40,343 bases of DNA from Dactylosporangium siamense (GTDB lineage Bacteria; Actinomycetota; Actinomycetes; Mycobacteriales; Micromonosporaceae): NCBI RefSeq assembly GCF_016862795.1, contig NZ_BONQ01000160.1:1-40343 (forward strand). Reading direction: 5' to 3'. Of this stretch, positions 1,675 through 28,118 are shown one piece after another. Position 1 is the stretch's first letter. The number at the start of each line of letters is the position of its first letter. The notes under the pieces are model-generated. The model had not been told where the DNA came from and did no database searches. It saw nothing but the letters and a program-made list of their open reading frames with translations. Made by a program: the position numbers and the translations under genes.

Positions 1675-2624
1675 CCCTTGACTCCACCGGCCAGCAGGCC
1701 GCGAACGAAATATCTCTGCAGTGACAGGAACACGATGATCGGGATGACCATCGAGACGAACGCCCCGGAGGTCAGCCGCTGCCAGTCGTTGCCCCGGGTG
1801 CCGGCCAGCTCGGCCAGCCGGACCGTCAGCGGCCGGGTGTCCGGACCGGAGGTGAACACCAACGCCACCAGAAGATCATTCCAGATCCACAGGAACTGGA
1901 AGATCGTCAGGGACGCCAGCGCCGGCGTGATGAGCGGCAGGACGATCCGCCGGAACGTCATCGCCGGTCCCGCGCCGTCGACCCGGGCCGCCTCGAACAG
2001 GTCCTTCGGCAGCTCGGACATGAAGTTGTGCAGCAGGAACACGCCGAGCGGCAGGCCGAAGCAGGTGTGTGCGAACCACACGGCGAAGAAGCCGCCGCCC
2101 CACTCGGTGTAGTCACCCAGGATCTGCAGCAGCGGGATGAGCGCCATCTGCAGCGGCACGATCTGCAGCGTGAACACGCCGATGAAGATCCAGTCCCGGC
2201 CGCGGAAGTTGAGCCAGGACAGCGCGTACGCGGCCATCGCCGCCAGGGTGACCGAGAACACCACGGCCGGCACGGTGATGGTGAGCGAGTTGACGAAGTA
2301 GCTCGCCAGCCGGCCGGAGGTCGCCGAGGTCCCGAACACGACCTCGTTGTAGTTGTCCAGGGTCAGGCTGGGGTTGGTGAAGAACTTCCACCAGCCCGTG
2401 GTCTTGATGTCGTTCTCGGGGCGCAGCGACGACACGAACAGACCGAACGTGGGGATCGTCCAGAGGATCGCGATGATGATCGACACGACGCTGGCCGTGC
2501 GCGAGGTGAGCTTGCGCCGGACCCGGCCGGCCATCGTGTTCGCGGGGACCTCACCGCTCTTGTAGCGCGGGCCGGCCTCGGGCGCGTTGTCGTCTTTGCC
2601 CTTTTCGAGGGAAATGTTGCTCAT
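1671..2624 (-). CDS. Sugar ABC transporter permease, MalG-like
   Basis: This 317-residue membrane protein has about six hydrophobic segments after a charged N-terminus of about 40 residues. The MalG-type EAA loop is visible as EAARVDGAGPAMTFRRIVLP, the coupling site for the ATPase. It should form a heterodimeric channel with the MalF-like protein encoded just upstream. It overlaps that gene by ATGA and the GH13 gene by GTGA, so all three are tightly coupled. The substrate is inferred to be an alpha-glucoside from the operon enzyme. No ATPase gene lies in the operon; actinomycetes commonly energise such importers with a shared MsiK-type ATPase encoded elsewhere. Confidence 0.92.
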   Translation of the reverse strand: MSNISLEKGKDDNAPEAGPRYKSGEVPANTMAGRVRRKLTSRTASVVSIIIAILWTIPTFGLFVSSLRPENDIKTTGWWKFFTNPSLTLDNYNEVVFGTSATSGRLASYFVNSLTITVPAVVFSVTLAAMAAYALSWLNFRGRDWIFIGVFTLQIVPLQMALIPLLQILGDYTEWGGGFFAVWFAHTCFGLPLGVFLLHNFMSELPKDLFEAARVDGAGPAMTFRRIVLPLITPALASLTIFQFLWIWNDLLVALVFTSGPDTRPLTVRLAELAGTRGNDWQRLTSGAFVSMVIPIIVFLSLQRYFVRGLLAGGVKG

Positions 2625-3619
2625 CGGATCTCCGCTCGCTTCCGCAGCTGCCGGGCCTGGTACACGACGACCGGCACGACGAGCAGGAACAGCACGACGG
2701 CGAGCGCGGCGCCGCGGCCCTCACCGTTGGGGTCGTCACTCAGCCGGAACGCCTGGTTGTACATCTCGAAGGCGAGCACGCTGCTCTTGAAGTTGCCGTT
2801 GGTCGACGTCCGGACGATGTCGAAGACCTTCAGCGTGGCGATGGTGATGGTGATGGTGACCACCACGACCGCCGGCCGGATGCTCGGCATCGTGACCCGC
2901 CAGAACATCTGCCACGGGCTGGCGCCGTCGAGCCGGGCGGCCTCGACGATCTCGGCGGGGATCGCCTTGATCGCGGCGGACAGGATCACCATCGCGAAGC
3001 CGGCCTGGATCCAGATCATCATGACGATCATGTAGAACGTGTTGCTCGGCGAGCTGGTGAGGAACTGCTGCGGTTCCATGCCCAGCCAGACCAGGATCTG
3101 GTTCAGCAGACCGATCTGCTCCTGGTCCGCCTCACGGAACGCGTAGATGAACTTCCAGATGATGGTGGCGCCGACCAGCGAGATCGCCATCGGCATGAAG
3201 ATGAGCGACTTGGCGATGCCCTCGCCGCGGGCCTTGTCGACCAGCACCGCGTAGATCAGGCCGAACGCCGTGGCCAGCAACGGCACGCACACCACCCAGA
3301 ACAGGGTGTTGCGCAGCATGATGAGCGTGTCGTCGTTGGTGACGATCCAGGTGTAGTTGTCCAACCCCACGAACTTGCCGCGGGTGTTGTTGTAGAACGA
3401 CAGCGTCACCGTGCGGATCAGCGGGTAGACCAGGCCGATCGCGAGCAGGATGAGCGCCGGGCCGAGGAAGCCGAACATATGCAGGCGTTCCTTGCCCTTC
3501 CCCCACCGGGGCAGGATGTCGAGCACGAACAGAAGGCCGCCGACCACGGCGACGAAACCGCCGATGAACAGCAGCGCCGGCCAGATCTTCGCGACGTCTT
3601 CGGAGAAGTCATAGTCCAT
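2621..3619 (-). CDS. Sugar ABC transporter permease, MalF-like
   Basis: This 332-residue protein has an N-terminal pair of hydrophobic segments (about residues 13-35 and 48-70), then the usual carbohydrate-permease core. The EAA loop reads EAARLDGASPWQMFWRVTMP. It is the partner of the MalG-like permease and takes substrate from the binding lipoprotein encoded upstream. It lies second in the operon, 69 bp after the binding-protein gene, and a strong hairpin sits in that gap. Its stop overlaps the next start (ATGA). Confidence 0.92.
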   Translation of the reverse strand: MDYDFSEDVAKIWPALLFIGGFVAVVGGLLFVLDILPRWGKGKERLHMFGFLGPALILLAIGLVYPLIRTVTLSFYNNTRGKFVGLDNYTWIVTNDDTLIMLRNTLFWVVCVPLLATAFGLIYAVLVDKARGEGIAKSLIFMPMAISLVGATIIWKFIYAFREADQEQIGLLNQILVWLGMEPQQFLTSSPSNTFYMIVMMIWIQAGFAMVILSAAIKAIPAEIVEAARLDGASPWQMFWRVTMPSIRPAVVVVTITITIATLKVFDIVRTSTNGNFKSSVLAFEMYNQAFRLSDDPNGEGRGAALAVVLFLLVVPVVVYQARQLRKRAEIR

Positions 3620-3638
3620 GGGGGTGTCCTCCGACCGG

Positions 3639-3676
3639 CCGGCTCCGGCGCCGTGGTGCTCTGGCGCCGGAGCCGG
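3639..3676 (-). terminator. Intercistronic hairpin between binding-protein and permease genes
   Basis: Positions 3639-3652 and 3663-3676 are a perfect 14-bp inverted repeat with a 10-nt loop and no T-run. Such hairpins after binding-protein genes usually partly terminate transcription or protect the upstream mRNA, giving more binding protein than permease. The position shows this use is plausible; the effect is inferred. Confidence 0.7.
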
Positions 3677-3688
3677 ACCTTCAGCTGC

Positions 3689-5029
3689 TTACTTGGGCCA
3701 GGTGCTTTCGATGTAGTCCAGCGTCGCCTTGGTGTCCTTGGTGCCGTTGATCCAGTCGGTCATACCGGTCCAGAAGGACTTCGAGCCGACGGCCGCGGGC
3801 ATCAGGTCGGACCCGTCGAACCGGGCCACGGTGGCCGGGTCCTGCAGGATCTTCACCGAGAGCTTGTCGATGGAACCGGTGACCAGGCTGACGTCGAGGT
3901 TCTTGTTGGCCGAGATCCAGTCACCGAGCTTGGCCTTGCTGTTGGCCCACTCGGCGGAGGCGAGGTAGGTCTGCACCTTGACGACCTCTTCGCGGTCCGA
4001 GAAGGCGGAGACGAACTCGCCGGCGACCAGGACCGGCTTGCCCTTGGCGGGGTCCACGGCCGGGAAGTAGAAGGCGAACACGTCGCCGTCCTCGGCCACG
4101 TTCGTGCCCTTCGCCCACTGGTTGGAGTAGAAGTTGGCCTGGCGGTGCAGACCGCACTTCTTGTCCTTGACCGGCAGGCCACCCTCCTGGAAGGAGGTGG
4201 TCACGATGGTCTTCGGGTTACCGACGTACTTGGGGTTCTTCAGGATCGACGCGGTCCGCTCGGCTGCCGACACGATGCGGGGGTCGTTGAACGGGATCGT
4301 GTGGTTGACCCACTGGTCGTACACGTCCGGGCCCTGGTCGCGCAGGACGATGTCCTCGATCCAGTCGGTGGCCGGCCAGCCGGTCGCGTCACCGGACTCG
4401 ATGCCCGCGCACCACGCCTTGATGCCCGTCGCCGCGATGTCGTCGGAGAGCTTGATCATCTCGTCCCACGTGGTGGGGACCTTGTAGCCCTTCTCCTTGA
4501 ACAGCTGCGGCGAGTACCACACCAGCGACTTCACGTTCGCGCCCAGCGGCACGCCGTAGACCTTGCCGTTGACGGTGGCGTACTTGGCCCAGTCCTTCGA
4601 CCAGTTCTTGTCGAGGTTGGCCTTCACCGGCGCGGGCAGCTCCTTGAGCTGACCCTTCGTGGCGAACGAGGCGAGCAGGCCGGGCTGCGGGAAGACCGCG
4701 ATGTCCGGCGGCTGACCTCCGTCGGCACGCACCTTGATCTGGGTCTCGAACTCGCCGGACCCCTCGTACTCGATCTTGATGTTGGTGCACTCCTCGAACT
4801 GCTTCCACGAGGAGGTCAGCTTGTCGGCTTCGGCATCACGGATCGTCGCGTAAATCGAGACGGTCTTCTTCTTGTCGACCTTGTATTGCGCGTACGGCGC
4901 GCACTCGGGTTTGTCGGCGCTGGTTGAGCCGGTGTCACTGCCACTGTCACCGCAAGCGGCGGCGGCGAGTGCCAGCGCGGCCACACCGGCGAGCGCGAAC
5001 GCCCGACGCCGCCTCGAGAGGACAGCCAT
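3689..5029 (-). CDS. Extracellular sugar-binding lipoprotein of an ABC importer
   Basis: The 446-residue product has an n-region rich in Arg, a hydrophobic stretch (residues 10-24) and a lipobox LAAAAC with the lipidated Cys at residue 26, followed by a Ser/Gly/Asp linker. The rest fits solute-binding family 1 proteins for oligosaccharides. The protein would sit on the outer face of the membrane and deliver sugar to the two permeases. It is the first gene of the operon. A near-perfect ribosome binding site (AAAGGAGG) lies 7 bases before the ATG. The promoter region holds a LacI-family operator, so expression is probably induced by the sugar. Confidence 0.93.
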   Translation of the reverse strand: MAVLSRRRRAFALAGVAALALAAAACGDSGSDTGSTSADKPECAPYAQYKVDKKKTVSIYATIRDAEADKLTSSWKQFEECTNIKIEYEGSGEFETQIKVRADGGQPPDIAVFPQPGLLASFATKGQLKELPAPVKANLDKNWSKDWAKYATVNGKVYGVPLGANVKSLVWYSPQLFKEKGYKVPTTWDEMIKLSDDIAATGIKAWCAGIESGDATGWPATDWIEDIVLRDQGPDVYDQWVNHTIPFNDPRIVSAAERTASILKNPKYVGNPKTIVTTSFQEGGLPVKDKKCGLHRQANFYSNQWAKGTNVAEDGDVFAFYFPAVDPAKGKPVLVAGEFVSAFSDREEVVKVQTYLASAEWANSKAKLGDWISANKNLDVSLVTGSIDKLSVKILQDPATVARFDGSDLMPAAVGSKSFWTGMTDWINGTKDTKATLDYIESTWPK

Positions 5030-5102
5030 GGTTAGCCTCCTTTGGCTAGACCCGGTCCGGGCGAACAGCTCCGCCCACGTACCGGTGTGCTGTGTCCCTC
5101 GG

Positions 5103-5132
5103 ATGTAAGCGTTTGCAAGGTCGGTTTGTCGA
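5103..5132 (-). promoter_or_regulatory. Sugar operon promoter with embedded LacI-family operator
   Basis: On the minus strand a -35-like TCGACA (5132-5127) and a -10-like TTACAT (5108-5103) are 18 bp apart. Between and overlapping them, 5104-5117 (TGTAAGCGTTTGCA on the plus strand) matches the symmetric LacI/GalR operator pattern TGnAAnCGnTTnCA at every fixed position. A repressor bound here would block polymerase. The divergent LacI regulator is the obvious candidate. The operator match is strong; the promoter boxes are less certain. Confidence 0.7.
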
Positions 5133-5162
5133 GCCCTTCGGCAGGATTGATCGATAACGAGT

Positions 5163-5209
5163 TAGCAACACGGTGGACATATTGCTGTTGCGCAGAGTGT
5201 TGCTAGCCT
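5163..5209 (+). promoter_or_regulatory. Probable leaderless promoter of the lacI-type gene, with inverted repeat
   Basis: TTGCTG (5182-5187) and TAGCCT (5204-5209) are 16 bp apart and resemble actinobacterial -35/-10 boxes. Only 6 bases separate the -10 from the GTG at 5216, so the transcript may start at or next to the start codon. TAGCAACA (5163-5170) and TGTTGCTA (5198-5205) form a perfect 8-bp inverted repeat that frames the -35 and covers the -10, a possible second regulator site. Confidence 0.5.
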
Positions 5210-5215
5210 CCCCGT

Positions 5216-6244
5216 GTGGCCGACGTTCCCGTGCCCGTGAGCATGGAGGACGTGGCCCGGCTGGCGGGGGTCTCCTCCGCCACCGTGTCACGCACCCTCC
5301 GAGGGCTGCCCAACGTCTCCGACGAGACGCGCGACCGCGTGCTGCAGGCCGCGGCGTCGCTGTCGTACGTCGTGTCCCCGATCGCCTCCCGCCTCGCCAG
5401 CGGCCGCACCCACACGGTCGGGGTGATCGTCCCGTACGCCGCCCGCTGGTTCTTCGGCCAGATCGTCGCCGGCGCCGAGTCCGTGCTGCGCGAGCACGGC
5501 CTGGACCTGCTGCTGTACAACATCGGTGATGTCGCCGCCCGGCAACGCTTCTTCGGCCAGCTCCCCCTGCGCCGCCGAGTCGACGCCGTCCTCGTCGTCG
5601 CCATGCAGTTCACCGACCCCGAGACCGCCGACCTGCGCAGCCTCGGCGTCCCGATCGTCGCCGTCGGTCACGACGTCCCCGGCGCCGGCTGCGTCCGCAT
5701 CGACGACGTGGCGGCGGCCACCTCCGCCATCCAACACCTCCTCGGCCTCGGCCACCGCCGGATCGGGATGATCTCCACGTACGCCGACCAGGCGATGTTC
5801 CTGCCCGTCGCGCACGAACGCCGGCGCGCCTACCTCGACACCCTCACCGCCGCCGGCCTGCCCGTCTGCGACGAACTGGTCATGTCGGTCCCGCACGGCC
5901 TCGACGGCGGCGAACAGGCCATGCGCCGCCTCCTCACCCTCCCCGACCCACCCACCGCCGTCTTCGCCGAATCCGACGAACTCGCCTTCGGCGCCCTTTC
6001 CGCCCTGCGCCGCACCGGCCGGCACGTCTCCGTCATCGGCTTCGACGACCACGAGCTCAGCGCCCTGCTCGACCTCACCACCGTCCGCCAGCGCGTCTTC
6101 GAACAGGGCGTCCTCGCCGCCGGCATGCTCCGCCGCGCCATGACCGTCAGCGACTGGACCCCGGAAGAGCTCCTCATGCCCACCACCCTCGTCCTGCGCG
6201 CCTCAACCTGGCCGGTCGCGGTTAGGACCGCCAGCACCGGGTAG
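5216..6244 (+). CDS. LacI-family transcriptional repressor of the sugar operon
   Basis: The 342-residue protein begins with a LacI helix-turn-helix (about residues 9-30, MEDVARLAGVSSATVSR), a hinge-helix region, then a periplasmic-binding-protein-like effector domain. It diverges from the alpha-glucoside operon and a consensus LacI operator lies in the shared region, so it very probably represses that operon until an inducing sugar binds. I keep the GTG at 5216 because a -10 box sits only 6 bases upstream, which fits a leaderless message. An ATG at 5243 could be an alternative start and would still keep the whole HTH. Confidence 0.93.
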   Translation: MADVPVPVSMEDVARLAGVSSATVSRTLRGLPNVSDETRDRVLQAAASLSYVVSPIASRLASGRTHTVGVIVPYAARWFFGQIVAGAESVLREHGLDLLLYNIGDVAARQRFFGQLPLRRRVDAVLVVAMQFTDPETADLRSLGVPIVAVGHDVPGAGCVRIDDVAAATSAIQHLLGLGHRRIGMISTYADQAMFLPVAHERRRAYLDTLTAAGLPVCDELVMSVPHGLDGGEQAMRRLLTLPDPPTAVFAESDELAFGALSALRRTGRHVSVIGFDDHELSALLDLTTVRQRVFEQGVLAAGMLRRAMTVSDWTPEELLMPTTLVLRASTWPVAVRTASTG

Positions 6245-6292
6245 CTCGCGGCCCGTTGGATTCCTTCGGTAGCACTTCAGGGGGTTAGTGCC

Positions 6293-6430
6293 ATGACCGA
6301 GATGCCGGTGACCTGGGAACAGCCGGACGACGAGCTCGAGGACCTGATCGGCCCCGACACGGACCTGATGGACCAGGAGCCGGAGCAGCCCACACCGACT
6401 GACTTCTTCTGGGAGGACGATGAGGAGTAA
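6293..6430 (+). CDS. Acidic 45-residue microprotein
   Basis: The gene runs from ATG 6293 to TAA 6430, with AGGGGG about 9 bases upstream. The product has 18 Asp/Glu among 45 residues and no Lys or Arg. It ends in an aromatic-acidic tail (DFFWEDDEE). Codon third positions are almost all G or C, like the neighbouring real genes, which supports coding. I recognise no family. Possible roles are a protein-binding or nucleic-acid-mimic peptide, but this is speculation. It lies between the lacI-type gene and tRNA-Lys. Confidence 0.6.
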   Translation: MTEMPVTWEQPDDELEDLIGPDTDLMDQEPEQPTPTDFFWEDDEE

Positions 6431-6465
6431 CGCACCGCACAGGCCGGACGGGGGGTATCTCGTTT

Positions 6466-6493
6466 TTGGGGCCCGGCAAGGGCGTGCTAGAGT
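6466..6493 (+). promoter_or_regulatory. tRNA-Lys promoter
   Basis: TTGGGG (6466-6471) and TAGAGT (6488-6493) are separated by 16 bp. TAGAGT fits the actinobacterial TAnnnT -10 box, and it lies 17 bp before the mature tRNA 5' end. Confidence 0.6.
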
Positions 6494-6510
6494 TTCCTCC
6501 GTTCAGCCAG

Positions 6511-6583
6511 GCGCCGCTAGCTCAACTGGCAGAGCAGCAGACTCTTAATCTGCGGGTTGTAGGTTCAAGTCCTACGCGGCGTA
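6511..6583 (+). tRNA. tRNA-Lys (anticodon CTT)
   Basis: The cloverleaf can be drawn by hand. The acceptor arm is 6511-6517 with 6576-6582 and discriminator A at 6583. The anticodon stem GCAGA/TCTGC is at 6537-6541 and 6549-6553, with loop CTCTTAA carrying anticodon CTT at 6544-6546. The T stem GTAGG/CCTAC is at 6559-6563 and 6571-6575. CCA is not encoded. The 3' part of the gene is the left copy of a 40-bp direct repeat whose other copy lies at 10674. Confidence 0.97.
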
Positions 6584-6608
6584 CGCGACAAAGGCCCAGG
6601 CCACGGCA
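6569..6608 (+). repeat. Direct repeat, tRNA-proximal copy (putative attL)
   Basis: These 40 bases are identical to 10674-10713. They start in the T-loop of tRNA-Lys, run through the tRNA 3' end and enter its terminator. Weaker similarity continues to about 6650. tRNA 3' ends are the standard target of tyrosine integrases, and the element restores the tRNA at one end, as seen here. Confidence 0.85.
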
Positions 6609-6636
6609 CTCCTGCCGGACCTGGGCCCTTTCGCGT
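6583..6636 (+). terminator. tRNA-Lys terminator hairpin
   Basis: Arms 6583-6600 and 6620-6636 pair almost throughout, with core GGCCCAGG/CCTGGGCC. The loop contains a further CGGCA/TGCCG stem (6604-6608 and 6613-6617). The structure directly follows the tRNA. Confidence 0.85.
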
Positions 6637-6690
6637 TGCCGGGCCCGTACAGCCAACCCCGTCGTGCGACGTCGGCGCTCGGGTTGGCGG

Positions 6691-9600
6691 CTACTGGTCG
6701 ACGGTGAGCCTCAGCCGGACCGGCGAGGACGGCTGCGGCGGCCCGTAGCTGTCCGTGCAGATGATCTCGATGGTGGCCGACATCGCCTTCGTCGGCATGC
6801 CGTGGAGGTGCCCGGTGTCGGGGTCCAGTTCCAGTCCCGGCGGCAGCGGGTCGCCGGCGGCCGCGACCTGCCAACCCTTCAGCGGCCGGTTGAACACCCG
6901 GGTGCCGCCGTCGGCGGTGAGCATCGTGCTGTATCTGACCCCGACGGTGGCTCGCGGCAGGTCGGTGGTGGTGATGACCGGGGCCTCCTCGACGAACGCG
7001 GCGACGGTCGTCATCGTCGTCGAGGTGAACGCGGCCAGCGCGTCGACCGCGGCGATGATCGATCCCCGGGTCACGGCGCGGGGGTTGAGCCCGATCCGCA
7101 GCGGCTGCAGCACTCCGGGGATCGCGGACAGCCCGATCGCGGCCGCGCTGTACGGGTTGGTGCCGCTGTCGTGGATGGCCTTACCGGATGCGGCCAGGAA
7201 GCCGGTGGCGAAGATCCCCACCAGGATCGGGCCCAGGACCACCTCGTCGTAGTTCTTGGCGTACGGGGTCTCACCCTTGCGGAAGCTCCGCGCCCAGGTG
7301 CCGGCGCCGACCGCGAACGAACCGACGCTGAACCCGAACGCCATGGACCAGCTGCCGCCGGCGTCGTTCCAGTCGGTGCCGGTGACCGGTGGGCACGCGG
7401 TTCCCACCCCGTACAGTCCGGCCGAGCAGATCAGCGAGGTCAGCGCGGCAACCTTGCTCGTGGTGTCCCACCAGCCGGGCCGGACCGCCTTCGGCTTGAG
7501 CGGCTCCAGGTCGCCGAAGACGTCGGCGCAGGCCCCGAGCATGCCGGCGATGCCGAGGATCTTGTGGACGGTCAGCATCCCCGCCGGGTCGGTCGACGCG
7601 CCGGGGGTTGCGCCGGGCTGCCACGACGGGGCCGGCATGCTCGGGAACTCTCCGGTCGGGAACGGTTGCGTGTCGACGCCGTGCATGGCCTTGTACGCGG
7701 TGGTGCCGGCCACCGCCACGATCAGGAAGGCGAGGTCGCCGAGTGTCATCTGCGCCTCGGGCTGCTTCGCCTGGGACCGGAACCAGCCGTACACATCGTT
7801 GACCTGACCCAGCGTCGCCGGGGTGGTGAGCACGTCGTCGAGATGCTTCGCGATGACGTCGACCAGTGCCACCCCCGCCCGCACGGCGGCGTCGGCGGCG
7901 TGGACGAACGGATCGGCGAGGGACCCGACCATGTCCAGAGTCGAGGACACCGACGCCTTCGTCACGGCGTCGGGGTCGGCCGTGTCGGTGACCCTCCCCA
8001 GCGCCCGGTCCTTGTCGACGAGCACCCGGTCGGTGCCCGCCACCACGCCGCTGCCGGTCAGCGCCGTCATGAACCGGTCGGTGGCACCGGCGATCACCCC
8101 GCTCTTGTCGACCACCGGCAGATCGTTCATGGGTTCACCGAGTGCCCGGTCGAACAACCAGGTGACCTGCGGGTACGCGAACAGGTGCGAGGTGCTCGTG
8201 CCGGTCCTGTTCGCATCGGTGATGGTCGGCACCTGGTTGCCGGCATCCCCGACCCGGCGCACCCCGTAGTCGCCGCTCATCCGGTCGAGAACGCCGGTCA
8301 GCGTCGCCTTCTGGCCGGCGAACCACCCGTCGGTGTACATCGTGGCGAAGTGGTCGACGGTCTCCGCCCCGTATTTCAGGATGGTGGTGAAACCGTCCTG
8401 CAGCGCGGTCTTGGTTTTCCAGATGTGGTCGAAGTTGAACACCGCACACAGCTTCGTGGTCACCGCGTCGATGGACGTGACCACCCACGCGAGGGTCGCC
8501 TCCGCCGCCCGGACGGCCCGGTCGAGGCCGTCGATGAGGTTGGTGACCAGCTCGACGGTCTTGCCGGCGATCGTCACCCAGATCCGTGTGACGGCCGCGA
8601 CAGCGACGTTCGTCACCTCGATCGCGCCGCTCTTGATGCCCTCCCACACGTCGCCGGCGAAGTCGGCGGCGAGCTCCAGGATTCCGCCGTAGTCGGGCCG
8701 GGCCCGGATCGCGGCGAGGTGGTCCGCCGCGTCTTGCGGGTTGTCGAACTCGACATAGCCCGGCACACCGGAGGCGGTGGACCGGACGTGGTCGCCGACC
8801 GCGAAGCCGTGAATGCGGCGGCCGTGGCGGTCGAGCGCCGAGACCGGCGCCTTGCCGTCGGCCATCCGGAGCAGGTTCTTGACCCCGTTGGCGGCGGCCT
8901 CGGCGTGGCTCTCCATTCCCGGCCGCACGAGGGGCGCCAACGCGTACTTGTCGAACGTGCCGGCGACAGAGGTCAGCGTGCCGGTGCCGGCCAGGTAGCC
9001 GTGCACCGCGGCGGCCGGCTGGATGACCGCACCCTGGTGCAGACCGACCGCGTCCACGTGCAGCGTCGCCGGCAGCAGGCTGTCGGCCGGCGTGGACAGC
9101 ATCACCCGACCGAACATGTTCGTCGTGGCGGGCACGACGCGACCCGGCCCGATCAGGTGCGACACCCCGGCGATCTCCACCTCGACGAGGGTCTCGGCGG
9201 AGACCTGCACCGTGAAGCCGGGCATCGGCGCGCCCTGCTGGTCGAGGAGGGTCACCTGACTCACGTACCGGTTGACGGTGTGCGGCGCCTCACTGGTGGC
9301 CGGTTTCCGCACGTTGTCCGTGGTCCACCGGGCCGTGACCAGGTCCTGGGTGTGGATGCCGAACTGCTCGTCGGGCCGGACCGGGGCGGTGCGGCGGGTC
9401 ATGACGGTCGGGTGGAAGTCCGGGAACGGGTCGACCGCGTACTCCACGACGTGCGTGGTCAGGCCGACGCAGGCGGGTACCGGCTCGGCCGCGCGTGCCG
9501 GCCCGGTCGCCGGCACCGACTGCGCCCAGACCGGTGCGCCCCGGGGCTTCCACGAGGCCTGGTGCAGCACCTTCAGTGTGCGGTCCGCGTTCAGGCCGTA

Positions 9601-10533
9601 GACGTGCATCATGCCCACGCTGTCGGTCCACACCGTGGCCTCGGTCAGGTCGACCGGGGTCGTCGTGGTCGCGTACGAGGGCGTCGCCGGGATCCGGTGC
9701 CAGCTGACCAGGTTGCCGGCGGTGAGGTACAGGCAACCGAGGGCCGGACCGGGTGCGTGGAAGGTGCCGACGAGCGCGGTGGCATTGGTCGCCACGACCG
9801 TCGTTTCGGTTTCCATGACGTCCCACCGCTGAACGTTGGTGCCGGACCGGAGGTAGAACACCGTGCGGGTACCCGGGGCGCTGGTGTCGAATCCCATCGT
9901 GCCCGCCACCTCGTCGGGGCGGTTCCCCGCTCCGGGCAGGAGGTAGGACGCGCACACGAACCATGGGCCGTCGATGGTCGGTGCCAGCGTCGCCACCGCG
10001 TGGCGCCCCGCGACCAGCCCGCTGACGATGCCCTCAACGCCGTTGTAGGCGACGGTCAGCCCGGTCAGGCTGACGTTGGGGCGCAGCGGCCCGTCCTGGA
10101 AGGCGATGGCGCCGGACACTGCCTCCCAGGCGCACGTCGTCACCCCGTTGGTGACCGACCGGGTCAAGCGCAGCGCCGCGGGCCGGTCGCCGGGCACCGT
10201 GTAGACCGCCCAGACGCTCAGGTCCCGCCGGTGCACGACGGTGACGACCTCCTCGGCGGCGACGTTCAGCGGGGTCTGCTCCCAGCCGCTGTCGGAGCCG
10301 CTGCGCTGCAGGTAGGTCAGCTTGTTGGTGGCGTCGACGATCAGCGCCTCCTCCCGGTTGTCCCGGAACGGGTTGGCGAACAGCGCCACCCGGTTGGCGC
10401 CGGTCGCCACCGACACCACGTCGGACGCGATCGCGGTCTGCATCAGCATCGACGACACGGTCGTCGAGCCGGGTGCCGCATCGGCCGGCTCATCGGCGGC
10501 TGTAGGCCGGGGCAGGCGGTGGGTCATCGTCAT
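6691..10533 (-). CDS. Giant multidomain protein of unknown function (propeller-like, helical, Ig-like)
   Basis: I do not recognise this 1280-residue protein as a named family. Residues of about 25-390 contain repeated beta-rich segments with aromatic endings, suggesting a lectin- or sialidase-like beta-propeller. Residues of about 425-530 look like an all-beta regulatory or Ig-like domain. A long helical middle follows. Several hydrophobic stretches lie between about 920 and 1150, for example around LAFLIVAVAG and ILVGIFATGFLAA. The last 90 residues resemble a putative Ig (He_PIG) domain, with PPGLELDPDTGHLHGMPT. There is no N-terminal signal peptide. The ATG at 10533 has a GAGG-type ribosome site. 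It is the only gene between the two att-like repeats. A binding propeller joined to hydrophobic helices could mean a surface protein or pore-type effector, but this is conjecture. Confidence 0.8.
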   Translation of the reverse strand: MTMTHRLPRPTAADEPADAAPGSTTVSSMLMQTAIASDVVSVATGANRVALFANPFRDNREEALIVDATNKLTYLQRSGSDSGWEQTPLNVAAEEVVTVVHRRDLSVWAVYTVPGDRPAALRLTRSVTNGVTTCAWEAVSGAIAFQDGPLRPNVSLTGLTVAYNGVEGIVSGLVAGRHAVATLAPTIDGPWFVCASYLLPGAGNRPDEVAGTMGFDTSAPGTRTVFYLRSGTNVQRWDVMETETTVVATNATALVGTFHAPGPALGCLYLTAGNLVSWHRIPATPSYATTTTPVDLTEATVWTDSVGMMHVYGLNADRTLKVLHQASWKPRGAPVWAQSVPATGPARAAEPVPACVGLTTHVVEYAVDPFPDFHPTVMTRRTAPVRPDEQFGIHTQDLVTARWTTDNVRKPATSEAPHTVNRYVSQVTLLDQQGAPMPGFTVQVSAETLVEVEIAGVSHLIGPGRVVPATTNMFGRVMLSTPADSLLPATLHVDAVGLHQGAVIQPAAAVHGYLAGTGTLTSVAGTFDKYALAPLVRPGMESHAEAAANGVKNLLRMADGKAPVSALDRHGRRIHGFAVGDHVRSTASGVPGYVEFDNPQDAADHLAAIRARPDYGGILELAADFAGDVWEGIKSGAIEVTNVAVAAVTRIWVTIAGKTVELVTNLIDGLDRAVRAAEATLAWVVTSIDAVTTKLCAVFNFDHIWKTKTALQDGFTTILKYGAETVDHFATMYTDGWFAGQKATLTGVLDRMSGDYGVRRVGDAGNQVPTITDANRTGTSTSHLFAYPQVTWLFDRALGEPMNDLPVVDKSGVIAGATDRFMTALTGSGVVAGTDRVLVDKDRALGRVTDTADPDAVTKASVSSTLDMVGSLADPFVHAADAAVRAGVALVDVIAKHLDDVLTTPATLGQVNDVYGWFRSQAKQPEAQMTLGDLAFLIVAVAGTTAYKAMHGVDTQPFPTGEFPSMPAPSWQPGATPGASTDPAGMLTVHKILGIAGMLGACADVFGDLEPLKPKAVRPGWWDTTSKVAALTSLICSAGLYGVGTACPPVTGTDWNDAGGSWSMAFGFSVGSFAVGAGTWARSFRKGETPYAKNYDEVVLGPILVGIFATGFLAASGKAIHDSGTNPYSAAAIGLSAIPGVLQPLRIGLNPRAVTRGSIIAAVDALAAFTSTTMTTVAAFVEEAPVITTTDLPRATVGVRYSTMLTADGGTRVFNRPLKGWQVAAAGDPLPPGLELDPDTGHLHGMPTKAMSATIEIICTDSYGPPQPSSPVRLRLTVDQ

Positions 10534-10673
10534 GGTCGGTGCCTCTCGGTGTGTCCGCGATCACGACCGGTCGGTCGCACCGGGGCAGACGGACCCGTAG
10601 GAGGCGCTGATACCGGCCGGGCCGGCGCTGTCCGATCTCCGACAGTCGATCGGATGGTCAGCGGCCCGAACTC

Positions 10674-10713
10674 GTCCTACGCGGCGTACGCGACAAAGGC
10701 CCAGGCCACGGCA
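10674..10713 (+). repeat. Direct repeat, distal copy (putative attR)
   Basis: Perfect 40-bp copy of 6569-6608, carrying 15 bases of the tRNA-Lys 3' end without the rest of the tRNA. Sequence after 10713 diverges mainly in loop positions while the hairpin is largely retained. Confidence 0.85.
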
Positions 10714-10740
10714 GTCTTGCCGGACCTGGGCCGTTCGCGT
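10688..10740. terminator. Second copy of the tRNA-type terminator hairpin
   Basis: Arms 10688-10705 and 10725-10740 share the core GGCCCAGG/CCTGGGCC, and the inner CGGCA/TGCCG stem is kept although the loop bases differ from the first copy. It could end transcription from the minus-strand GH16-like gene, which stops 140 bp away. Confidence 0.65.
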
Positions 10741-10879
10741 TGCCAGGGCCGTGCAGCCCAACGTCTACAGCCGAGACCGCACGGCCGCAGCCACCAGTCC
10801 GTCCGTGCCCTCCAAGCGGCCCACCGCGACCCCTCGCAGCAGTCCACCACCGTTGCGACCGGGCCCCACCCGAAAACGC

Positions 10880-12523
10880 CTACGGGGTGTTGGCTTGCGC
10901 GTGGTTGATGCCGCTGGCGTAGAAGCCGTTCACGGCGTTCTGAACATCCGTCAGCGACATTGCCTGCTCGGCCTTGAAGACCCAGTTGACCCGCATGTTC
11001 CACGTGCGATCGCCGGTCATGGGAAGATCGATGAGCCACATGCTGAACTGGATCCCCATCCGTTCGCGCGGATATGCCGCGCCGTCACTGGTGAAGATCT
11101 TGTTGCCATCGATCGAGTAGGTGACCACGCCGTTGGCGGCGGTGAGCATCAGGACGTGCCAACCGGCGAGGGACTTGTTGGTGGCCCGCGTGACCCGGTC
11201 CCCGTCCTTGGAGCTCCGCCAGCTGGTCGTGTCGATCTTCGGCCCCGCGGCGCCCCAACCGCCGTTGGGTTGGTACTCGTAGTCGAGCTCGCTGTAGGTC
11301 GGCGACGACGGCGAGGACGAGATCGTGCAGAACGCCTGGACGACATGGTCGCCACTGCGGCCGGTAACCGGTTTGTCGGCAAAGAAGATCCGAGCGGCGA
11401 GCGTCCCGGTTTGGAAGATGTTGCTGGCCGTCGCCAGCTCGGCTTGCTTGGTGCCCTGTTTGGTGCCGTCCGAGATGGTCGTGAGCTGCAATGCCTGTCC
11501 GCCCTGAGCGGTCGGATCGGCGGGGAAGCTGACCATGTCGGCGGACCAGGTGTCGGGGATGCCCGGCCGGCCCTTCTCCGTGCGCACGTGCCAGCCGCCG
11601 ACGTTCAGCGCCGGGTCGTTCGGACCGGTGTAGTGGAAGTTGTCGAACATGACGCCGGGCGCGACGGGGGCGCTGCTCGGCGGCGCCGACGGTTGGGCGC
11701 CCGCGGCCAGGGCCTGGGGGCCCGGCTCATCGCCCCAGCTGAGGTCGCCGTCGACGTATGCGGTCACCAGTCGTGACGGCTTGAACTGCGCGGCCTTCGC
11801 GTCGAACGAGTGGTCGTTGGCCTGGTTCAGTTCCTTGTGATCGAGCCGGTACAGCTGCAGCCCGATGCCGCCGGTGTTGCGTTGCGGGGCCAGGGTGCCG
11901 GCGTCGGCCGTGAAGCCGATCTGGAGATAGTGGCTGGCCTTGGGGCTCGGGCTGGCCAGCGCCTCGACGGTCGCCGTGATGTTCGCGCACCGGAGCTCGG
12001 TCTGGAAGCAGTTCGCGCCGTACCCCGAGGCCTTGTCCGCGTCGAAGTAGTACCGCAGCTTCACGCTCCGCAGTTCGACGGGCTTGGCGGAGGTGTTGAC
12101 GACCTGAAGAAATGGCCGGCCGATCGGGGCGGCGGGTGGCGTGTCCGTTCGGTACTGAACGGTGAGCGGGACGGACGGCGGCTCGGTGGAGGCGGCCGAC
12201 TCGAGAGGGCCGATCCGCAAGGCGCCGTAGGCCGCGGCGGCGACGCCGACGACCACCATGGCCACCGCCGCGAACAGGAGGCCCCCACCGCTGCGCTGGG
12301 GTCGCAGCAGGCGCGCCGAAACGACCTGGGTCATGTCGGGGCCGCCGGCAATCAGCCGGTCAGTGTGGTAGCGCCTCTTGGAGGCGACGTAGGTGATGAT
12401 CGATGAGCCGACGAGACCGATCGTGACGGCGAAGACGATCAGTTGGACCCGGCCCGCGAGACTCACCGCGACGGCGATGCCGGCGAGCACTACGAAGACG
12501 CCCAGGCCCTTGAGGGAGTTCAT
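10880..12523 (-). CDS. Membrane-anchored CBM3-GH16-like polysaccharide-active protein
   Basis: From the ATG at 12523 the product has 547 residues. Hydrophobic segments at about 7-24, 29-46 and 82-103 anchor it to the membrane. A CBM3-like (cellulose-binding type) domain spans about 118-268. A Pro/Ala/Ser linker follows. The C-terminal concanavalin-like domain carries E412-L-D-Y-E416, matching the GH16 catalytic pattern ExDxE. It would act outside the cell on a beta-glucan or a related polymer. It lies 14 bases after the stop of the GT2 synthase gene, so both are probably one operon. A GTG at 12556 would extend it by 11 residues into that gene; I prefer the ATG. Hydrolase or transglycosylase activity is inferred from the motif only. 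Confidence 0.8.
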   Translation of the reverse strand: MNSLKGLGVFVVLAGIAVAVSLAGRVQLIVFAVTIGLVGSSIITYVASKRRYHTDRLIAGGPDMTQVVSARLLRPQRSGGGLLFAAVAMVVVGVAAAAYGALRIGPLESAASTEPPSVPLTVQYRTDTPPAAPIGRPFLQVVNTSAKPVELRSVKLRYYFDADKASGYGANCFQTELRCANITATVEALASPSPKASHYLQIGFTADAGTLAPQRNTGGIGLQLYRLDHKELNQANDHSFDAKAAQFKPSRLVTAYVDGDLSWGDEPGPQALAAGAQPSAPPSSAPVAPGVMFDNFHYTGPNDPALNVGGWHVRTEKGRPGIPDTWSADMVSFPADPTAQGGQALQLTTISDGTKQGTKQAELATASNIFQTGTLAARIFFADKPVTGRSGDHVVQAFCTISSSPSSPTYSELDYEYQPNGGWGAAGPKIDTTSWRSSKDGDRVTRATNKSLAGWHVLMLTAANGVVTYSIDGNKIFTSDGAAYPRERMGIQFSMWLIDLPMTGDRTWNMRVNWVFKAEQAMSLTDVQNAVNGFYASGINHAQANTP

Positions 12524-12536
12524 TGTCTTTTCTGGT

Positions 12537-13715
12537 TCACTTCCACGACGAAACACGCGTGGTGTAGGACTTGAAGATCGAGGACACGATCCAGTAGGTA
12601 CGCACCACGGTGTATACCAACTGAGGAATGAGCATCGCTTCGACGAGCATCGCTTTCCAGCCGAGATTGCGCACCCGTATCGCCGGATAGACGATCCAGA
12701 AGGCCGCCAGGACCCAGAAGACCGGCTGTGAGGGAACGCCGTACACGGCCAGCGCGGCGAGTTGCGTCGTTCCCCAACCCAGCACGTACGCGGCGCCGAA
12801 AAGCCCGAGAATCATTGTGGCGATGGAATGCCAGGTGAACTTGGTCCAACCTCGCCGGCGCAGGGCGTCAACGGTGCCGCGCACCCAACGCTCGCGCTGC
12901 TGGAGCAGCTCTTTCATGGTTGGCATCAGGTCGGTGTAGGCGATGCAGAGCTGGTTGGCGGTGACCTTCCAGCCGCATTCCTTGAGCGTCAGCGTGGTCT
13001 CATAGTCTTCGACCAGGTTGCGGTGGTCCTCCCAGAAGACCTTTTCCCGCAGATCGATCAGGCTTTGCAGGGCCTTGCCCCGGTAGAACGACCCGGCTCC
13101 CGCCATCGTGTGGACGTCGCTGCGGTAGCGCATGCTGGCGGCGCGCCCGTACTCGATGATCTGCATACCGAGCAGGTACCGCTGCCACGGATTCCGCCAC
13201 AGACCGGTCCGGCCGAAGCAGGCCGCGCTGACGCCACCGATGCTCTGGTCCGATTCCATGACATAGGTGGCGCGCTCGATGAATTTCGGGTGCAGCTCGG
13301 TGTCGGCATCCATGGTGAGCAGGTGCTTGACCGTGGTGTCCAGACGTCCGCCCAACTGCGACCGCAACCAGTCGATGCCGTGGTTGAGCGCGCCGGCCTT
13401 CTTGTGGGGATTGTTCGGCAGGACACGAACAATGGTTTTCGGCGACTGCCACCGGGCCGCGAAGCTTGCCGCATAGGCCTCAGTATTGTCGGTCGAATTG
13501 TTCACCACGACGATGATGAGGTCCGGGCGCACGCTCTGCCGGGCCAGCGAGTTGAGCGAAGTGAGAATCCCGACTTCCTCATTTCGCGCCGGAACCACGA
13601 CGACCGTGTCGTAGACGAAGGACGGCGATCCGTAAGTGGTCGCCCGCCCTCTCCTGCGCCGGCCGTTGGGCGTGTCCAGCGCCCCGCGCCTCGAGCCGTA
13701 TACGGTCGCGCCCAT
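12537..13715 (-). CDS. GT2 family processive-type polysaccharide synthase
   Basis: With the ATG at 13715 (GGTGAGAGG upstream) the protein has 392 residues. The GT2 landmarks are present in order: VVVVPARNEE at 37-47, DAD at 136-138, the acceptor-side ED at 236-237, and QQRERW at 272-277, the QxxRW signature of cellulose, chitin and hyaluronan synthases and PgaC. Three or so membrane segments follow from about residue 295. It would polymerise a sugar nucleotide and thread the chain through the membrane. Neighbouring genes encode a carbohydrate-binding GH16-like protein and a NodB deacetylase, so the product may be an amino-sugar polymer later deacetylated. An open frame upstream to 13826 adds 37 non-conserved-looking residues and I reject it. 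Confidence 0.88.
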   Translation of the reverse strand: MGATVYGSRRGALDTPNGRRRRGRATTYGSPSFVYDTVVVVPARNEEVGILTSLNSLARQSVRPDLIIVVVNNSTDNTEAYAASFAARWQSPKTIVRVLPNNPHKKAGALNHGIDWLRSQLGGRLDTTVKHLLTMDADTELHPKFIERATYVMESDQSIGGVSAACFGRTGLWRNPWQRYLLGMQIIEYGRAASMRYRSDVHTMAGAGSFYRGKALQSLIDLREKVFWEDHRNLVEDYETTLTLKECGWKVTANQLCIAYTDLMPTMKELLQQRERWVRGTVDALRRRGWTKFTWHSIATMILGLFGAAYVLGWGTTQLAALAVYGVPSQPVFWVLAAFWIVYPAIRVRNLGWKAMLVEAMLIPQLVYTVVRTYWIVSSIFKSYTTRVSSWK

Positions 13716-14091
13716 CAGCCTCTCACCCCCGTTTGAGCAGCGCGACGTCCACTCACCGCAGTCTGCAGCGAAGACTAGCCGATGTGAGCACACGCGCAAA
13801 GTGCCGCCCGAAATATCCGCCTGCAATAGGTTCGCCCACGAGAGTCCCGGGCAAATCGGTATATAACTGGCGCCCGGCAGGGCGGGACATAGCCCAGATC
13901 ATGGTTGATTCAGTGCGCACCGCGCAGCGGTCGCCATTCATGGCGAAATATGACATAGCCATACGCGATCTTGCGGCTAATCCTCGGGTACGGACCGGGT
14001 CGTTCCCCATACGCCAATACGCTAATCTCATCCGGCGCTGCCCCATGCGGCGAATCAGGGCTGACGGTCGATACGCCCGAAGGGCGGCATC
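13716..14091. promoter_or_regulatory. Divergent control region of the polysaccharide locus
   Basis: This 376-bp gene-free region separates the GT2 synthase from the deacetylase gene and is visibly richer in A and T than its surroundings. ATACGC occurs four times in the same direction (13961, 14009, 14017, 14071), two of them 8 bp apart, and GACATAGCC occurs twice (about 13885 and 13952). These may be regulator sites, but no known operator is recognised and the promoter boxes are not clear. Confidence 0.45.
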
Positions 14092-16263
14092 ATGCGAAAA
14101 CTACTGACGATGACATCAGTGGCACTCATTGCAATGGGCGGCCTGGTCTATGCCGCACCGAGCGGGTGGGCGGCCACCAATCTCATCGCCAACCCTTCGG
14201 TCGAAACCGCGGCCAACGCGACCACGCCGACGGCCTGGCAAACCGGGGCATGGGGGACGAACGCGACCACCTTCAGCTATCTCAGCACGGGTCACAGCGG
14301 CACGCGCAGCGTCAAGGTCCAGACCACGAGCTACACGGACGGCGATGCCAAGTGGTACTTCGCGCCCGTAGCGGTCACGCCGAACGCCACCTACACCTTC
14401 AGCGACTACTACCAGGCCACGGTGAGCACCAAGCTCATCGTGCAGTTCACCAGTGCCGGCAACGGTCTCAGCTACACCGAGCTGGCGCCCGCGCCGGCCA
14501 CGACCGGCGCCGCCTGGGGCCAGGCCACGCGAACCATCACCGCCCCGGCGGATGCCCAGAGCGTGACCGTCTTCCACCTGCTCGACGCGGTCGGCACGCT
14601 GATCATCGACGATGTCAGCCTGACGGGTGAGACCACAGCGCCCCCGCCGGTCGAGCTCGTCGCCAACGCATCGGTCGAGGTGGCATCCGCCACCAACCCC
14701 GGCCAGCCCGACGGCTGGGCCACCGGCGCCTGGGGCGGCAACACCGCGACGTTCAGCTATCCCACGACCGGCCACAGCGGGTCCCGGAGCGTCAAGGTCA
14801 CCCTCGCCAACTACACCGACGGCGACGCCAAGTGGTACTTCAACCCCGTGACGGTCACCCCGGGCGTCAGCTACTCCTTCCACGACTGGTACCAGTCCGG
14901 CGTCGAAACCGAGCTCATCGCGCAGTTCACCAGGCCGGACGGCACTTCGTACTACCAGTCGATGGCCACGGTGCCGGCCAGCAGCGCCTGGAAGCAGGCG
15001 ACCAGCTCGATCTCGATCCCGTCCGACGTCAACAAGCTCACCGTCTTCCATGTCCTCGCCGCCAACGGCTCGCTGACGCTCGACGACGCCAGCCTGACCG
15101 TCGCCGGTGGCACGCCGATCCCTGGCAACCCCATTCCGAACGCCTCGGTCGAATCGGCCGCCGGCACCGGTCCGGCGGCCTGGGAAACCGGCGCCTGGGG
15201 CGGCAACACCGCGACGTTCAGCTATCCCACGACCGGCCACAGCGGGTCCCGGAGCGTCAAGGTGACCGTCAGCAACTACACGGACGGCGACGCCAAGTGG
15301 ATACACCAGGCGCAACCGCTCGTCCCCAACAAGCAGTACCGGTTCACCGCCTGGTACAGGACCAACACGCAACCGCACGTGGTCGCCCAGTTCAATCACC
15401 ACGACGGCACGGCGGCGTACCTGACCCTGCCGCTACCCCTGCCGGCAGCCAACGCCGCAACGACCTGGCAGCAGTACAGCGACACCCTCACCGTGCCCGG
15501 CGACGCCGCCTCCGTCTCGGTCTACCTCCTGCTCAGCAGCAACGGTTGGCTGGAGACCGACGACTACAGTCTCGAGCCGTACACGCCCGCGGGCTTCAAC
15601 CGGCCACTGGTCTCGCTGACGTTCGACGACGGCTACGAAGACAACGTCACGTCGGCCCTGCCCCTGCTGCAGGCCCGGAACTTCAAGACCACCCAGTGCT
15701 TCATCACCGAAACCATCGAGGGCGTGCCGGGCGGCCCCGCGAACGTCATGGCCTTCGCCAACACCGGGCACGAGATCTGCTCGCACACCGTCACGCATCC
15801 ATTCCTCACACAGCTTTCCGGCGCCCAGCTCACCAATGAGTCGACCCATTCGCAGCAATACCTGCAGCAGCTCACCGGTCAGGCCGTGCCGAACATCGCG
15901 TCGCCCTACGGCGATTACAACGCGAACGTGCTCAACCAGCTGAAGCTGTCCTACCGATCGCACCGCACGGTGGACGCGGGCTACAACAGCAAGGACAACT
16001 TCGACATCTACCGCATCCGGGTGCAGAACGTGGACCTCACCACCACCTCGGCCGAGTTCCAGAGCTGGCTCGACCAGGCCGAGGCCACGAACACCTGGCT
16101 CGTGCTCGTCTACCACCGGATCGTGCCGACCGGCGCGAGCGCCGACGGCGACTACGACACCAACCAGGCCGCCTTCGAGGGCCAGCTCAACGCCCTGCGC
16201 GACAGCGGCCTCACGGTCAAGACCTACAACGCCGCGCTGGATGAGCTGGTGCCGCAACTCTGA
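14092..16263 (+). CDS. Secreted polysaccharide deacetylase (NodB) with three carbohydrate-binding-like modules
   Basis: The 723-residue product has a signal peptide (about 1-27, ending GWAA). Three tandem jelly-roll-like modules (about 28-178, 187-337, 347-494) each carry TGAWG, FSY, GHSG-RSVKV and YTDGDAKW, and resemble CBM4/9-type modules. A NodB deacetylase domain follows from about residue 505. It shows TFDDG (Asp512, Asp513), the metal-binding SHTVTH (His565, His569), SPYGDY (604-609) and VYHR with His675. It would remove acetyl groups from an extracellular amino-sugar polymer. The gene diverges from the GT2 synthase, which could make the substrate. The ribosome site AAGGGCGG precedes the ATG. 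Modules 2 and 3 share a perfect 77-bp DNA repeat. Confidence 0.92.
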   Translation: MRKLLTMTSVALIAMGGLVYAAPSGWAATNLIANPSVETAANATTPTAWQTGAWGTNATTFSYLSTGHSGTRSVKVQTTSYTDGDAKWYFAPVAVTPNATYTFSDYYQATVSTKLIVQFTSAGNGLSYTELAPAPATTGAAWGQATRTITAPADAQSVTVFHLLDAVGTLIIDDVSLTGETTAPPPVELVANASVEVASATNPGQPDGWATGAWGGNTATFSYPTTGHSGSRSVKVTLANYTDGDAKWYFNPVTVTPGVSYSFHDWYQSGVETELIAQFTRPDGTSYYQSMATVPASSAWKQATSSISIPSDVNKLTVFHVLAANGSLTLDDASLTVAGGTPIPGNPIPNASVESAAGTGPAAWETGAWGGNTATFSYPTTGHSGSRSVKVTVSNYTDGDAKWIHQAQPLVPNKQYRFTAWYRTNTQPHVVAQFNHHDGTAAYLTLPLPLPAANAATTWQQYSDTLTVPGDAASVSVYLLLSSNGWLETDDYSLEPYTPAGFNRPLVSLTFDDGYEDNVTSALPLLQARNFKTTQCFITETIEGVPGGPANVMAFANTGHEICSHTVTHPFLTQLSGAQLTNESTHSQQYLQQLTGQAVPNIASPYGDYNANVLNQLKLSYRSHRTVDAGYNSKDNFDIYRIRVQNVDLTTTSAEFQSWLDQAEATNTWLVLVYHRIVPTGASADGDYDTNQAAFEGQLNALRDSGLTVKTYNAALDELVPQL
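14722..14798 (+). repeat. 77-bp internal direct repeat, copy 1
   Basis: Identical to 15187-15263. It encodes the conserved core of carbohydrate-binding-like module 2, from TGAWGGN to RSVKV. Confidence 0.9.
15187..15263 (+). repeat. 77-bp internal direct repeat, copy 2
   Basis: Identical to 14722-14798, in module 3. Module 1 has the same protein motif but clearly different DNA, so copies 2 and 3 were made alike recently by duplication or gene conversion. Confidence 0.9.
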
Positions 16264-16310
16264 CCCGGCTCGCGGCCAGCGGGCGGCGGCTACCAGAAAG
16301 GCCAGACGGC

Positions 16311-16712
16311 TCAGGAGGCCGGCGGCAGGATCTGCGCGACCTCCAGGACGTTGCCGGCCGGATCGGCGAACGCGACGGTCCGGCGGCCCCACGGGCGGTC
16401 GGTCGGGCCGTTGAGGATGGTGACCCCGTGCTGCTTGAGCTCCTCGTGGACGGCGTTGGCGTCCTCCACCTCGAAGGTGAACAGCAGGCGGGCGCCCGCC
16501 TCCGGCCCGGCCACGGGTCGCGGCTCGACGAGCGTGCCGGCCCGGTCGGCGCGCAGGATGTTGATCATGAGGTTCTCGAAACGGACCACCGCCGAGGCCT
16601 CCTCGGCGTAGACGACCTCGAGACCGAGGACGTTCTCGTAGAACGCCCGCGTGGCCGCCAGGTCTTCCGCGAAGATCGTGATGACCTCGATCTTGTTCAA
16701 TCCTTTGATCAC
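16311..16712 (-). CDS. VOC (glyoxalase/bleomycin-resistance) family protein
   Basis: The 133-residue protein has two beta-alpha-beta-beta-beta halves typical of the vicinal oxygen chelate fold. The first begins KIEVITIFAEDLAATRAFYENVLGL, and the second includes LLFTFEVEDANAVHEEL and ends with the common FADPAGNVLEV. The usual first His metal ligand is not evident, so enzymatic activity is uncertain; many such proteins are unassigned. The GTG at 16712 is the start used. It is convergent with the deacetylase gene, 47 bp away. Confidence 0.88.
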   Translation of the reverse strand: MIKGLNKIEVITIFAEDLAATRAFYENVLGLEVVYAEEASAVVRFENLMINILRADRAGTLVEPRPVAGPEAGARLLFTFEVEDANAVHEELKQHGVTILNGPTDRPWGRRTVAFADPAGNVLEVAQILPPAS

Positions 16713-16869
16713 GCGCTACTCCCTCTCCCCGTCGGCACCGAAATCCCCCGGCGTTACCCGCCACAAGCCGCCGGAACGCGGCCGAGGCTTCGGTGTCCGT
16801 CCATGCCCGCCCATGATCACACACCGGCCGGCAGGCCGCTGCCCTGCGCAGACGGGCCGTGGCCGCCGG

Positions 16870-25927: not shown

Positions 25928-26040
25928 TGGAGCCGGCGCGCCCGGCGGCTCAGGGTGTCGCGAGGACCTCCGTCGACGCGCGGGCCGCTTGATGGAGCCG
26001 GCGCGCCCGGCGGCTCAGGGTGTCGCGAGGGCCTCCGTCG
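25895..26040. repeat. 65-bp tandem duplication across a convergent gene junction
   Basis: Units begin at 25895, 25960 and (partial) 26025. Units 1 and 2 differ at only a couple of bases. Each full unit includes a copy of the GT4 stop codon on the plus strand and of the permease stop codon on the minus strand, so the whole convergent junction was duplicated. Confidence 0.85.
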
Positions 26041-27950: not shown

Positions 27951-27951
<1 letters not shown>

Positions 27952-28118
27952 GACGGCACCTCCGCTTCGCTCCAGCGCCGCCCTGACCAACGCTGAGCCC
28001 CCGATGACCGGCCCGAGACGCTCCGCTGCCCTGACGGCACCTCCGCTTCGCTCCAGCGCCGCCCTGACCAACACTGAGCCCCCGATGACCGGCCCGAGAC
28101 GCTCCGCTGGCCGGTCAT
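27951..28118. repeat. Dispersed hairpin repeat, tandem copies B and C
   Basis: Two units (from 27951 and from 28032) share TGACGGCACC, CTCCAGCGCC and the GATGACCGGCC block. Only the second keeps the full hairpin (ATGACCGGCC 28085-28094, GGCCGGTCAT 28109-28118), matching 22-55 at the left edge. The stop codon of the adaptor gene (complement of 28115-28117) lies in the right arm at the same offset as the GH13 stop in copy A. The units fill nearly all the gap between the adaptor and ATPase genes. Confidence 0.85.

Follow-up and report, generated by a model that had tools for sequence, protein, structure and literature searches.

A probable integrase-less island remnant at a tRNA-Lys(CUU) insertion hotspot in Dactylosporangium siamense

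A 4.1-kb segment lying between an intact tRNA-Lys gene and a copy of its 3' end in Dactylosporangium siamense is probably the cargo-only leftover of one or more decayed tyrosine-integrase elements that inserted in the 3' end of tRNA-Lys(CUU). The parent elements were probably of the AICE type, as found at the same tRNA in a congener (G005). The segment lies in the window analysed here, the 40,343 nucleotides of contig C160 (NZ_BONQ01000160.1) of a 12.7-Mb genome in 296 contigs. Integration at the tRNA gene, already proposed by a sequence-only reading, is well supported by genome comparison, because the interval beyond the tRNA is variable in 7/7 genomes, extra tRNA-Lys 3' copies occur in 3/6 congeners, and one of these carries a pSAM2-type element at this tRNA. 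The observations that carry the argument are the repeat, the hotspot, a contig with no recombinase match and the AICE-type element of the congener. We consider a CIME-like (cis-mobilizable element) and possibly tandem segment the best reading. The single-gene, self-standing element first proposed goes beyond the evidence, as unshared DNA runs on to 16867 and no empty site was found.

The repeated tRNA-Lys end and its terminator

The features concerned are the following.
6511-6584, plus strand: tRNA-Lys (CTT), presumed attachment site in its 3' end (ARAGORN, Rfam; synteny in 6/6 congeners)
6569-6654, plus strand: tRNA-proximal repeat copy 1, from T-loop base 6 through the terminator (repeat scan, blastn, edge test)
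6590-6631, plus strand: tRNA-proximal terminator hairpin (sequence, folding)
10674-10758, plus strand: distal repeat copy 2, tRNA-Lys end and terminator (repeat scan, blastn, edge test)
10695-10735, plus strand: distal terminator hairpin (sequence, folding)

The tRNA, with anticodon CTT (CUU), is intact (6511-6584 by ARAGORN; 6511-6583 by the Rfam tRNA model). A perfect direct repeat of 40 bp (6569-6608 and 10674-10713, spacing 4105) belongs to a repeat family, D1, with 95% identity across 62 nt, and blastn aligns 6569-6654 with 10674-10758 at 92% over 86 positions with one gap. It starts at the sixth base of the T-loop (TTCAAGT, 6564-6570), and copy 2 consists of 15 bases of the tRNA-Lys end plus the terminator, without a tRNA. 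The likeness breaks off sharply on the left, where the 40 bp preceding the two copies resemble each other at chance level (1470 of 2000 random window segments reach their score), and likeness beyond 6654/10758 is at chance too (1894 of 2000). Both terminators fold alike (-26.6 and -27.8 kcal/mol) around the same stem, and differ in two hairpin-loop bases and the 3' tail. The earlier description of a perfect 40-bp repeat running from the T-loop into the terminator, with a second copy 4105 bp away that has no tRNA (tRNA and repeat scans) and terminators that vary mainly in their loops, is thus accurate.

The 86-bp repeat sits where the attL and attR of a CIME would be expected, with putative recombination activity of the ends. 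No further copy of the tRNA end with terminator was found elsewhere in the host genome. A search towards hrpB for a third att copy, with 24 bases of the tRNA end as query and 8 mismatches allowed, found none: the query matched the tRNA, copy 2 (6 mismatches) and six sites at 7-8 mismatches, two of them within 10759-16867 and both on the opposite strand.

Tandem repeats also occur farther along the window. One of 18 bp (40255-40343; 4.9 copies, 98%) lies at the contig end and may explain the assembly break; another of 81 bp (27951-28109; 2.0 copies, 98%) crosses the boundary of two genes, and one of 65 bp spans 25879-26040 (2.5 copies, 92%). A tRNA-Arg (gcg) called by ARAGORN on the minus strand at 27122-27207 overlaps FtsX/MacB-type permease frames and is possibly a false call.

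The gene between the copies and its relatives

6691-10533, minus strand: gene of 1280 codons (homology; Pfam; low-confidence structure model)

This is the sole homology-supported gene between the repeat copies, in agreement with the earlier claim of a single gene with a 1280-residue product. Since it is the minus-strand frame to which the relatives align, we regard a plus-strand open frame of 1480 aa (6466-10908) as antisense. The N-terminal part of the protein is beta-rich, the middle is helical and holds eight mildly hydrophobic stretches (638-1177), and the C-terminus is an Ig-like He_PIG domain; longer relatives also have Big_1 and invasin-type Ig domains. It has no match in NCBIfam, PHROGs or PADLOC; a single-sequence search of the PDB returned one sequence at E 0.16 and a profile search none, and structure prediction gave a poor model (pLDDT 38.7). 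By eye there is no obvious N-terminal signal, and our low-confidence guess is that the protein is exported or lies at the surface. With a GC of 0.709 and a GC3 of 0.941, the gene is host-like and does not stand out.

Matches to the protein are absent from all six congeners (0/6), so the gene is far from being a fixture of this place in all relatives, the finding that the sequence-only reading had named as speaking against it. Among 299 other genomes of the family, 23 match, near full length only in G124 (37%) and in the remaining 22 over the Ig-like C-terminus. A class-level sample gave matches at 1e-20 in 3 of 393 other genomes (G463, 41%; G524, in two pieces; G525, in part). An alignment-based search of genome contigs recovered four loci, in Candidatus Frankia meridionalis, Nonomuraea sediminis, Streptomyces filipinensis and a Catenulispora bin, where the single-protein search of the same set gave none; G524 and the Frankia locus are probably one and the same record. 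Two plasmid records match, from Streptomyces sp. HUAS 31 (31%) and, weakly and partially, Stanieria, and no relative was found in the phage and viral collections. The relatives thus appear rare and scattered in actinomycetes, a patchiness that fits horizontal transfer, and the gene may represent an uncharacterised cargo family.

The genomic contexts of these relatives weaken the idea of a dedicated tRNA cargo, since only the one in Candidatus Frankia meridionalis lies near a tRNA. This frameshifted copy (L117, 9956-14567) ends 0.6 kb from the 3' end of a tRNA-Arg(CCT), in the same orientation relative to the tRNA as in the window, and no distal tRNA repeat was found within the 23.9 kb examined. 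No tRNA lies near the relatives at L118, L119, L120, L080, L125 and L126, and a "tRNA-Ser" near the G124 relative looks, in our judgement, like a false call in coding DNA. The proposed search for the same gene at other tRNA sites therefore led to other contexts, with no flanking tRNA repeat found (the Frankia locus being the one tested).

Recombinase, transfer and replication genes

The earlier statement that no recombinase is present holds across the contig, which has 0 PF00589 and 0 PF07508 matches (tyrosine and large serine recombinases); the host genome has 14 and 3, respectively, all on other contigs. With the G005 integrase as query, tblastn (E up to 10) found no integrase remnant in the window, and none of the six likely genes of 6585-17538 shows a Pfam transfer or replication domain. 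In terms of element classes, the segment resembles a CIME in having neither an integration gene (Pfam, tblastn) nor, among those six likely genes, a transfer gene (Pfam); of the integrase, Rep and FtsK-type transfer gene that characterize an AICE, none occurs in the window's interval.

A variable interval between tRNA-Lys and hrpB

5216-6244, plus strand: LacI-family gene, conserved left flank (Pfam, synteny)
10880-16712, no strand assigned: DNA not common with congeners, possible second element (Pfam, blastn)
17581-19962, plus strand: hrpB (TIGR01970), conserved right flank of the hotspot (NCBIfam, congener comparison)

We compared the window with six congeners (G001 to G006), seven genomes in all. 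In each congener (6/6), the LacI-family gene and tRNA-Lys stand together, with hrpB further on the same contig. In the window, tRNA-Lys and hrpB are about 11.0 kb apart; in the congeners the distance is 13.2 (G001), 22.3 (G002), 15.3 (G003), 53.2 (G004), 76.4 (G005) and 30.2 kb (G006), and by sequence comparison this interval is a variable insertion hotspot of 11-76 kb in 7/7 genomes. From just past the tRNA to 16867, blastn (E up to 1e-6, over 60 nt) aligns no part of the window with any congener, and the match to G001 resumes at 16868. Within this stretch, 10880-16712 encodes a 558-aa protein with CBM_3, a GT2 glycosyltransferase, a polysaccharide deacetylase with CBM_4_9 and a glyoxalase. 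The congeners share some pieces among themselves, for example G002 and G003 on the hrpB side; the interval is therefore variable, but not wholly private to each genome.

Strains lacking 6584-10673 and keeping a single intact site, which the sequence-only reading had suggested looking for, were found neither among the six congeners, where the DNA beside either copy is absent, nor among 354 family genomes, where 14 others match a 90-nt query only partly and weakly. tRNA scans of the six congeners' stretches called no tandem tRNA-Lys.

Other copies and elements at tRNA-Lys in relatives

Three of the six congeners have additional tRNA-Lys 3' copies within the interval, 48 kb from the tRNA in G004, 16 and 60 kb in G005, and 2.2 kb in G006. 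The most complete element is that of G005 (C13:45000-64900; 742-16776), where an AICE-like element of the pSAM2 type lies between tRNA-Lys and a 3' copy and encodes, among 10 ORFs scanned, an integrase (PF00589, PF14659), HTH_17, RepSA (6.3e-129), FtsK_SpoIIIE and GntR/UTRA. A second segment of 44 kb, reaching to the next tRNA-Lys 3' copy, matches neither PF00589 nor PF07508. An integrase lies 5 kb from tRNA-Lys in G004. In G006 (L038, 6685-8937), a 2.2-kb segment bounded by tRNA-Lys and a copy of the tRNA 3' half (43 bp, 93%) contains an IS240-type transposase and Uma2, again with no match to PF00589 or PF07508. Segments of this kind in G005, G006 and the window mean that recombinase-free stretches at tRNA-Lys are not unusual. 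The tRNA-Lys(CUU)-hrpB interval is thereby documented as a genus-wide hotspot of a large-genome actinomycete, one that combines cargo-only remnants with tandem repeats and an AICE-type element, and tRNA-end repeats can flag islands missed by integrase-based searches. Separately, 40 bp of the tRNA-Lys 3' half recur unchanged in G001, without the remaining tRNA, near the end of another contig (C9:306859-306898).

We also compared the arms, defined as the 80 nt following the tRNA end, which differ among most genomes. The window's proximal and distal arms score 100 against each other, G002 against G004 scores 88, and G001 scores 86 and 63 against the distal arms of G004 and G005. The G006 distal arm scores 37 and 30 against the tRNA arms of G004 and G002 (0/2000 shuffles each) and 13-17 against others, and beyond its 80 nt the G006 distal side matches G002/G004 about 6.6 kb further on. 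The window arms score 13-19 against those of the congeners, versus 46 and 39 (0/5000 shuffles) against an arm in another genus (G028; C21, about 1474-1750) that follows a tRNA-Lys 3' fragment with terminator. The latter looks, from its sequence, to adjoin the C-terminal end of a tyrosine integrase (15 residues matching at 80%, E 0.012, together with a motif that we take to mark this C-terminus), and may belong to a decayed element. The likeness of the window arms may in part reflect common tRNA-Lys terminator sequence, because the proximal arm also scores 33 (0/5000 shuffles; distal arm 24) against the ordinary tRNA-Lys arm of G026, from another genus. The copies in G004 to G006 and G028 begin in or just before the anticodon loop, and that of the window in the T-loop.

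Origin of the segment

In the history that we propose, an integrase would have joined the attP of an element, made of a tRNA-Lys 3' end with its own terminator, to the tRNA, so that the tRNA was restored and the far end was marked by a tRNA 3' fragment. A second, related element would then have inserted in front of the earlier one by accretion, giving the order tRNA, A (the 1280-codon gene), att, B (the polysaccharide genes), hrpB. The integrase, the replication and transfer genes and the outer att site of B would have been lost afterwards, and the remaining segment could in principle travel in cis with a newcomer at tRNA-Lys. Accretion is the likeliest detailed history and takes about half of the confidence that we place in a remnant; we infer the order of insertion, the losses and any remaining mobility. 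Against a remnant stand the failure to find an integrase remnant, a third att copy or an empty site, and the host-like GC and GC3. The start in the T-loop, where the neighbours' copies start at the anticodon loop, also means that another integrase class or a partial loss must be assumed.

Some of these points give a little weight to an integrase-free origin, in which illegitimate recombination or repair duplicated the tRNA-Lys end and terminator locally and enclosed the gene by accident: the window has no recombinase, remnant or third copy, and the repeat reaches well past the tRNA, beyond the needs of an att core. We hold such a duplication improbable at an insertion hotspot where 3/6 congeners have tRNA-Lys 3' copies, one has an AICE-type element, and 6/6 lack the 1280-codon gene. 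The chances are slimmer still that the second copy is no att site at all and instead a relic of a once complete second tRNA-Lys gene or a conserved tRNA-Lys terminator. The terminator-type likeness to the G026 arm shows that such sequence recurs across genera, but the edge inside the T-loop is sharp and no tandem tRNA-Lys was called in the congeners' stretches; an unrelated terminator, which the sequence-only reading had itself raised as an objection, is unlikely because copy 2 includes 15 tRNA-end bases and the repeat is 92% identical over 86 positions.

The sequence-only reading left a choice between a cassette moved in trans and a decayed island, of which the island fits better, because recombinase-free segments recur at tRNA-Lys and no further copy of the tRNA end with terminator was found in the genome. 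A satellite-like 4.1-kb unit, itself mobile and carried by the tRNA-Lys integrase of another element, would account for one apparently intact gene between ends that are 95% alike. Its positive support comes from the small G006 segment, which shares the tRNA and the missing recombinase match, and whose distal arm is like those beside the tRNA in G004 and G002, as insertion would predict. This unit, however, was found at no other tRNA, its gene's relatives stand in other contexts with no flanking tRNA repeat found (Frankia locus tested), and the genome search gave no additional copy of tRNA end plus terminator, so that we give it little credence. A wider version, in which small cassettes ended by a tRNA 3' end and terminator move in trans among actinomycetes through the tRNA-Lys integrases of passing AICEs, is a long shot; if it were true, each insertion would renew both tRNA and terminator, and the window and the 2.2-kb segment of G006 would be two examples.

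Comparison with known systems

No direct ICE, IME or AICE ancestor of the window segment was found; the related material consists of the AICE-type element of G005 at the same tRNA and the arm likeness to G028. The probable remnant shares with CIMEs a repeat-bounded segment in a tRNA 3' end in which no recombinase or transfer gene was detected, its site being occupied in a congener, here G005, by a more complete element. It differs in that its repeat begins in the T-loop and includes the terminator, and its end activity and descent are putative. Published descriptions of CIMEs agree with a decayed, cargo-only segment (PMC5704250).

Decay and accretion at tRNA hotspots are described for Streptomyces AICEs and agree with our reading of the window (PMC9513070). 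As set out there, strain-specific elements share one tRNA, tandem elements are bounded by direct repeats, and remnants without signature genes occur, all as seen here; strains with an empty site exist in Streptomyces, whereas none was found here, and the window keeps only cargo (PMC9513070). The Dehalococcoides ssrA islands likewise insert in the T-loop region, form tandem segments between repeats of the RNA 3' end and have an integration module in only some of these segments, but use serine recombinases and a tmRNA target (PMC3146451). Mycobacteriophage Ms6 (T-loop, "class II") provides an actinobacterial att core that starts around the T-loop of a tRNA 3' end, although it is a phage with its own integrase and uses tRNA-Ala (PMC1762012). 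The structure in the window is thus of a known kind, a probable integrase-less island remnant at tRNA-Lys, and a fairly ordinary one given the six congeners.
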